A stretch of DNA of 64,000 bases from Candidatus Nitrosotalea bavarica (GTDB lineage Archaea; Thermoproteota; Nitrososphaeria; Nitrososphaerales; Nitrosopumilaceae): positions 1-64,000 of the forward strand of contig NZ_FUYK01000013.1 of the NCBI RefSeq assembly GCF_900167955.1, written 5' to 3'. Below, piece by piece: positions 16,508 through 22,270 of this stretch (positions are counted from its first letter, which is position 1; every line of letters begins with the position of its first letter). The translations under genes and the position numbers were made by a program. The notes under the pieces are model-generated. The model ran no database searches. It saw only the letters and a list, made by a program, of their open reading frames with translations, and was not told the DNA's origin.

Positions 16508-16550
16508 GTCGTGTATAGTCGTGTAATATTATGACTGAATATGCTGATGT
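16508..16550 (+). other. 5' arm of pre-23S processing helix
   Basis: Three blocks, GTCGTGTATAGTC (16508-16520), TATTATGACTGA (16527-16538) and CTGATGT (16544-16550), are each perfectly complementary, in reverse order, to 19555-19567, 19537-19548 and 19530-19536. Together they form an interrupted helix of 32 bp enclosing the 23S gene. Confidence 0.85.
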
Positions 16551-19525
<2,975 letters not shown>

Positions 19526-19529
19526 CAAT

Positions 19530-19567
19530 ACATCAGTCAGTCATAATACATAGAGACTATACACGAC
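19530..19567 (+). other. 3' arm of pre-23S processing helix
   Basis: ACATCAG, TCAGTCATAATA and GACTATACACGAC pair with the 5' arm at 16508-16550. A T-rich stretch (TTTCTTTTTTC at ~19581) follows and could end transcription. Confidence 0.82.
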
Positions 19568-21660: not shown

Positions 21661-21927
21661 TCATTTTACTTGGACTTTTTGTATTTTTTGAAGCTTTGAT
21701 GTGAGATGTTCTTTTTCTAATGAGAGTAATCGTATTTCATGTTTATCACGTATTTCTTTTAAAGGGAAATGTACCAGCATAAACTCATTAAAATCTTTTA
21801 GTCCGGAATCTTCTAGTTTTTTAAAAGCAATCTCTAATGCCTCAAGTGTATTATCAGTACCACAGTTGCTACATTCAGTATTTCTTAAAATTATAAATTT
21901 ACAATCTCCGTTATAGCACTGTATCAC
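21661..21927 (-). CDS. 88-aa protein with N-terminal zinc ribbon and coiled coil
   Basis: CYNGDC and CSNC (residues ~4-22) form a four-Cys ribbon, followed by a predominantly helical part (EALEIAFKKLED, IRDKHEIRLLSLEKEHLTSK) with coiled-coil character. Convergent with the preceding gene. Could be a small nucleic-acid or protein adaptor. Confidence 0.6.
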   Translation of the reverse strand: MIQCYNGDCKFIILRNTECSNCGTDNTLEALEIAFKKLEDSGLKDFNEFMLVHFPLKEIRDKHEIRLLSLEKEHLTSKLQKIQKVQVK

Positions 21928-22015
21928 ATACTCATACTGCGTAAGAACTATAAAAATAACATCACCTGAATATCAAAACTGGACCTTTTAAAAGATGGAT
22001 TCCTCAACAACGCTC

Positions 22016-22150
22016 AAATTAAAAAAAAGTGTCTCTATGATTATTTGAAAGTAATAAGCATAGAGTGAGCGATAATATTGTTTAGCCGATTAAGTTGGGC
22101 TAGGGTCTGTAATCGCTCGGGAGTAATCTCTGACACTTGTTTTTTGTGTA
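22016..22150 (+). ncRNA. candidate structured non-coding RNA
   Basis: Between two genes lie a long hairpin, CTCTATG (22033-22039)/CATAGAG (22059-22065) extended by TTATT/AATAA across one A-G mismatch, and a second stem GAGCGAT (22067-22073)/ATCGCTC (22112-22118). The second stem encloses TAGCC (22083-22087)/GGCTA (22098-22102). A T-run (TGTTTTTTG, ~22139-22147) follows and a TATA-like TTTTAAAA at ~21986-21993 sits about 25 nt before the start. The double-hairpin plan recalls archaeal H/ACA guides, but no clear ACA placement was found. Strand inferred from the TATA and T-run. Confidence 0.55.
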
Positions 22151-22270
22151 TAACGTAATCAGTTTTAAAGATTAAATCCAAATTATTCTAGTGATGAATC
22201 AATTATAATTTAACACATTTTGGAGTATACCTCTAACTATGATAACTATGATTACTATGACGACTATGGC

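Follow-up and report, generated by a model that had tools for sequence, protein, structure and literature searches.

The window, as we call the whole 64,000-nucleotide stretch of DNA that was analysed, carries on its minus strand a free-standing gene with its own promoter and terminator sequences, conserved in Nitrosotalea and in a sister genus. The reading that we favour, and consider rather probable, is that this gene encodes a non-coding RNA of about 115-119 nt, which would fold into a four-helix junction and act in trans, probably bound by a protein. It is found 2.5 kb beyond the 23S gene (16541-19539), on contig C5 of a 1.55 Mb genome (G000) assembled in 19 contigs. The features are as follows, P1 to P4 being the helices of the fold:

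22198-22214, minus strand: promoter element A, GTTAAATTATAATTGAT, conserved upstream block
22164-22186, minus strand: promoter element B, ATAATTTGGATTTAATC-TTTAAA; TTTAAA 25-28 nt before GTGTC in 28/28 copies
22022-22140, minus strand: non-coding RNA, predicted transcript of about 115-119 nt (28-copy alignment A3, model R1, fold z -6.71)
22132-22136, minus strand: P1 5' strand, GUGUC, invariant in 27/27 distinct copies
22121-22130, minus strand: P2, 3-bp hairpin GAG-AUUA-CUC (helix 2 of the alignment; fold)
22067-22118, minus strand: P3, the most conserved arm, with lower stem, 9/9 internal loop, upper stem and 10-nt apical loop
22098-22102 with 22083-22087, minus strand: P3 upper stem, 5 bp
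22034-22064, minus strand: P4, hairpin of 6 bp, one mismatch and 4-5 bp (helix 5)
22029-22033, minus strand: P1 3' strand, GACAC (helix 1, 96.3% of cells paired)
22021-22028, minus strand: T8 tract of the terminator, immediately behind P1, with six or more consecutive T in 28/28 copies
22041-22136, minus strand: 31-codon open frame within the RNA, with its GTG start inside P1, judged non-coding

Nitrosotalea are ammonia-oxidizing archaea and include species of acid soils; to our knowledge, little is known of small RNAs in archaea with this metabolism. The gene described here is single-copy, its strand, promoter and terminator are clear, and it occurs in the sequenced species Candidatus Nitrosotalea devanaterra (LN890280.1), which makes it a concrete and testable candidate. 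Its 28-copy alignment could enter RNA databases, and its patchy absence within Nitrosotalea offers a natural comparison for the role of the RNA.

Strand, promoter and terminator

The covariance model of the RNA (R1) matches positions 22015-22152 of the minus strand with 168 bits. The initial annotation had proposed a structured RNA on the plus strand, followed by a terminator-like T-run and preceded by a “correctly placed” TATA box. Neither signal is conserved in that orientation. Among the 28 copies of alignment A3 (27 distinct sequences), at least five T are kept at the plus-strand T-run (22140-22145) in just 10, whereas a run of at least five T follows P1 on the minus strand in 28/28. Likewise a TATA-like word stands 18-50 nt upstream of the plus-strand RNA in 3/28 copies, against 28/28 for CTTTAAA located 25-28 nt before the invariant GTGTC on the minus strand. 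We therefore reject a plus-strand RNA. In addition, about 75 bases still align upstream of the minus-sense RNA, while on the other side conservation stops at the T-run.

The changes at paired positions point the same way. Standard pairs fill 799/834 pair cells in the minus sense versus 781/834 in the complement; G-U occupies 43 cells at 11 pairs and A-C 25 cells. Eighteen of these A-C cells belong to a single pair of columns, 89-98, which thereby favours the plus strand but which most copies do not form; outside it the count is 43 G-U versus 7 A-C cells. The pair changes lean towards the minus strand and are no proof of it. Taken together, the conservation of promoter and terminator, the extent of upstream conservation and the pair changes place the gene on the minus strand as judged from sequence. 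A structured non-coding RNA, as in the initial annotation, is supported by its single-copy conservation, its stable fold and its dedicated promoter and terminator, but its orientation, promoter and terminator had been read on the wrong strand.

The 5' end of the transcript is predicted near 22140, the putative start being close to the CAAGUGUC block, and the 3' end near 22022, within the T-run. Upstream, the TTTAAA of element B is the probable TATA box, and the likelier one because its distance to the RNA is near-fixed. Element A (GTTAAAYTATAATTGAT), recognisable in 28/28 copies upstream of this probable TATA box, could be either an activator site or an alternative TATA box; in the latter case a second start would lengthen the RNA by a leader of some 38 nt. 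An exact search for A+B has a single match in the genome. A promoter matrix derived from the upstream regions of 30 of the 40 tRNA genes gave modest scores for B, for A and for an intermediate site, and singled out no site; element B was top-scoring only in several divergent copies. The assignment of element B as the TATA box is hence not settled. By these signals the gene appears to have its own promoter and terminator in 28/28 copies.

Two minor observations concern promoters. By eye, a possible dyad around TTTAAA can be seen in a few copies. Separately, about 20 bases (ATTTGAAATGTATTATAACGGG) are identical upstream of two tRNA genes from different genera (L088, about 1486-1506; L093, minus strand, about 18964-18944), so that long stretches of conservation are possible in tRNA promoters as well.

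Predicted fold of the RNA

On both strands the region has a better fold than 200/200 dinucleotide shuffles, with z -8.16 on the minus and -5.29 on the plus strand. Two helices described in the initial annotation are present in the sequence: the hairpin at 22033-22065, with 6+5 pairs and a single mismatch between them, and the stem 22067/22118 that encloses a third hairpin. They are part of a closed four-helix junction (P1-P4), of which the closing stem P1 and the small hairpin P2 had been missed. Folded singly, 10/10 copies (out of the 28) gave z values of -2.1 to -7.0; in four of the ten (L047, L053, L055 and L056) the minimum-energy fold lacks P1 or has it altered.

In the 28-copy alignment 95.8% of cells are paired, against at most 48.5% when the partners are slid. 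Compensatory changes, named in the initial annotation as the check on the structure, are few. Double changes occur at 2/31 pairs, a number reached by 13/500 shuffles, and one of these two pairs is not formed by most copies; the covariation term of alifold is -0.51. The high conservation of the sequence explains why covariation is weak. The modelled structure is likely, and is not proven by covariation.

Disparities appear between the helices. P4 contains both of the pairs changed on both sides together with many single-sided G-U changes. P1 pairs are mostly retained through G-U and broken in a few copies. P3 hardly varies, and the few departures in its upper stem are uncompensated. In P1 the 3' strand drifts but the 5' strand is invariant, which indicates a constraint other than P1 pairing on the latter. 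The loops are nearly as conserved as the stems: the apical loop has a mean identity of 0.95, with 7/10 positions invariant, and constraint is tightest for P3 with its loops and for the 5' strand.

Distribution and genomic context

A DNA search of 101 relatives found 27 positive, with one copy each, 26 of them over most of the RNA and one as a 28-nt fragment. With the covariance model the RNA was detected in 28/250 genomes and 2/22 genera of the family, and in 26/400 genomes and 2/82 genera of the class; among the genera so searched, no other was positive. It is found in single copy in 25/37 Nitrosotalea genomes and in three genomes of the sister genus (g6). The copies are 83-99% identical and their flanks are not alignable. 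Twenty-four named records contain a conserved piece of the RNA, among them the N. devanaterra record cited above.

One of the three sister-genus copies calls for caution. That of G279 (contig C12, L040) is about 97% like the copy of the window. A record, L067, equals the G279 copy in model score and in the letters of the RNA, and it also has the neighbouring genes of the window. Since L067 comes with a 23S gene 98% identical to that of the window, we suspect mis-binning, and the G279 copy probably lies on a mis-binned contig. The sister-genus evidence then rests on the two genomes that remain, G041 and G280.

A CDC48 gene tree of 35 genomes is consistent with the RNA having already been present in the common ancestor of both genera. 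On this tree the absences correspond to the clades G012/G024 and G026/G010/G030 plus scattered genomes, several being incomplete assemblies. Four of the Nitrosotalea genomes without the RNA (G010, G012, G026 and G030), which fall in these two clades, are nevertheless 95-99% complete. Thus the RNA is not essential to the genus. As a side observation, a CDC48 paralogue in G014, G041 and G279 has one TAA in frame within the matched stretch, probably close to an end.

We also looked for distant homologues with a second model (R2) and laxer filters in 35 genomes: the only strong matches were the already known G279 and G280. The best of the remaining matches, in G026 (E 0.04), lies across the end of a 319-aa frame and is unconvincing, and one in G111 (E 0.7) is within chance. 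As for viral carriage, no phage record was matched, one IMG/VR pattern was found in 0 contigs, and a second one occurred in a single contig (L081), which the covariance model does not support.

The genes around the RNA differ in family and orientation among the 21 loci compared. With neighbours changing in this way, a leader of any one gene is disfavoured and a free-standing gene fits.

Proposed mode of action and relation to known RNAs

We propose that RNA polymerase would be recruited by the conserved promoter (the TATA-like TTTAAA and the upstream element), and that transcription would stop in the T-tract after the closing stem. The RNA would then fold into the closed junction P1-P4, be held by a protein and act in trans, either as an RNP or as a small RNA that sequesters a protein; short base-pairing to targets may exist beside protein binding. 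A trans-acting, protein-held RNA is suggested because the loops and one strand of P1 are conserved about as strictly as paired bases and because the apical loop has no long complement: in 8/8 genomes searched, a perfect 12-nt complement was found only at the gene itself.

The main rival is a regulatory RNA acting by base-pairing, in which the unpaired segments would be seeds on mRNAs and the helices would only protect the RNA. We rate it as unlikely, though worth retaining. The conservation of the loops, close to that of the stems, and a stand-alone gene with a U-tail are what such a regulator would have; in that case the seeds could lie, just as tentatively, in the internal and apical loops of P3, the 5' strand and the UUACUCCC segment. 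The single occurrence of the 12-nt complement speaks against it, as does complementarity to rRNA, which does not exceed that of shuffles: with the 16S and 23S of the window itself the longest stretches were 8 and 9 nt, reached by 26/30 and 18/30 shuffles respectively.

A bolder proposal is a new class of RNA, an RNP of Nitrosotalea and its sister genus that would be controlled by an activator through element A and would regulate some process shared across the lineage, growth in acid for instance; a peptide might even be read from this RNA as well. We consider this improbable.

Could the conserved entity be a DNA site, bound by a protein or serving replication or recombination, that happens to fold? 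Such a site would account for a sequence conservation that exceeds covariation and for an element A conserved without a clear role. But the changes on one side of a pair tend to give G-U in a single strand sense, by the counts given above, and promoter and terminator flank the RNA precisely, which makes this explanation very doubtful.

A small protein gene or a dual-function RNA, with the GTG frame 22136-22041 giving a 31-residue peptide, has hardly more than a slim chance. That no coding alternative fits, as initially stated, is inexact insofar as this sense-strand frame is open, and holds insofar as the frame fails selection tests. It is open in 22/22 distinct frame-intact sequences (23 genomes), and in G016 and G017 a double change in alignment A3 converts CGG into AGA, both Arg. 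Its pN/pS is however 0.73 versus 0.04 in CDC48 of related genomes, which is not lower than in other frames (0.61 and 0.48); the full range of these frames is 0.48 to 1.36. Its pS is 0.108 versus 0.544 in CDC48, i.e. synonymous sites are five-fold less variable. Indels alter the frame or its end in 5/28 copies, one of them replacing the middle of the peptide, and a small-ORF test of the frame found no purifying selection on amino acids. We take the open frame to be a side effect of the RNA being conserved.

The least credible reading, a cis-acting leader or riboswitch, agrees with the window, L091 and L067, in which the start of a same-strand frame (family F31) lies some 150-230 nt downstream of the RNA start, but the nearest downstream frame in most of the other loci listed is on the opposite strand or of a different family, no constant position upstream of one same-strand family was found across the 21 loci, and the T-tract follows the RNA in all copies.

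For the favoured structured RNA, comparison with catalogued families gave no assignment. At the gathering cut-off Rfam 15 matched nothing but rRNA in the window; with E up to 10 in 21900-22250 nothing was found on the RNA sense within the RNA, and the same holds for three divergent copies. RNase P RNA and SRP RNA resemble it as stand-alone structured RNA genes, and RNase P RNA of this genome is also followed by a T-run; each has a single match in the genome, away from the present locus, and these matches span 276 and 313 bases. Tested for tRNA with ARAGORN or RF00005, the window gave 0 tRNAs, and none of the 40 tRNA matches of the genome is on contig C5.

C/D box sRNAs carry a C box (RUGAUGA) and a D box (CUGA). 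They are small with a terminal closing stem, as is this RNA, but neither box is present in the sense RNA of the window. H/ACA guides have a pseudouridylation pocket in a hairpin followed by ACA, with complementarity to the target. The likeness here is a hairpin with an internal loop (P3) and, in most copies, an ACA close to the 3' end. The difference is that several copies (G003, G006, G005 and G018) have lost the ACA; since it is not conserved, does not follow P3, and the hairpin preceding it has no pocket, and since complementarity to rRNA stays at the level of shuffles, we rejected this class. On sequence grounds the gene appears to represent a new RNA family of a familiar kind, real but modest, that matches no catalogued family.

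Going by their listings, none of the papers turned up in the open-access literature describes this RNA in Nitrosotalea. Seven small RNA genes are reported for N. devanaterra (PMC4836417), and the gene may already be annotated there as a small RNA. An excerpt on N. limnia mentions one unnamed conserved noncoding RNA common with N. maritimus (PMC3043068). The nearest parallel in kind is Tan1 of marine Thalassoarchaea, a 229-nt euryarchaeal sRNA seen as a transcript (PMC5069720). Going by an excerpt of that report, Tan1 shares with the present RNA a complex secondary structure, restriction to one archaeal lineage and a function without assignment; in contrast to Tan1, the RNA described here is about 117 nt long, thaumarchaeal, and known from its sequence alone.
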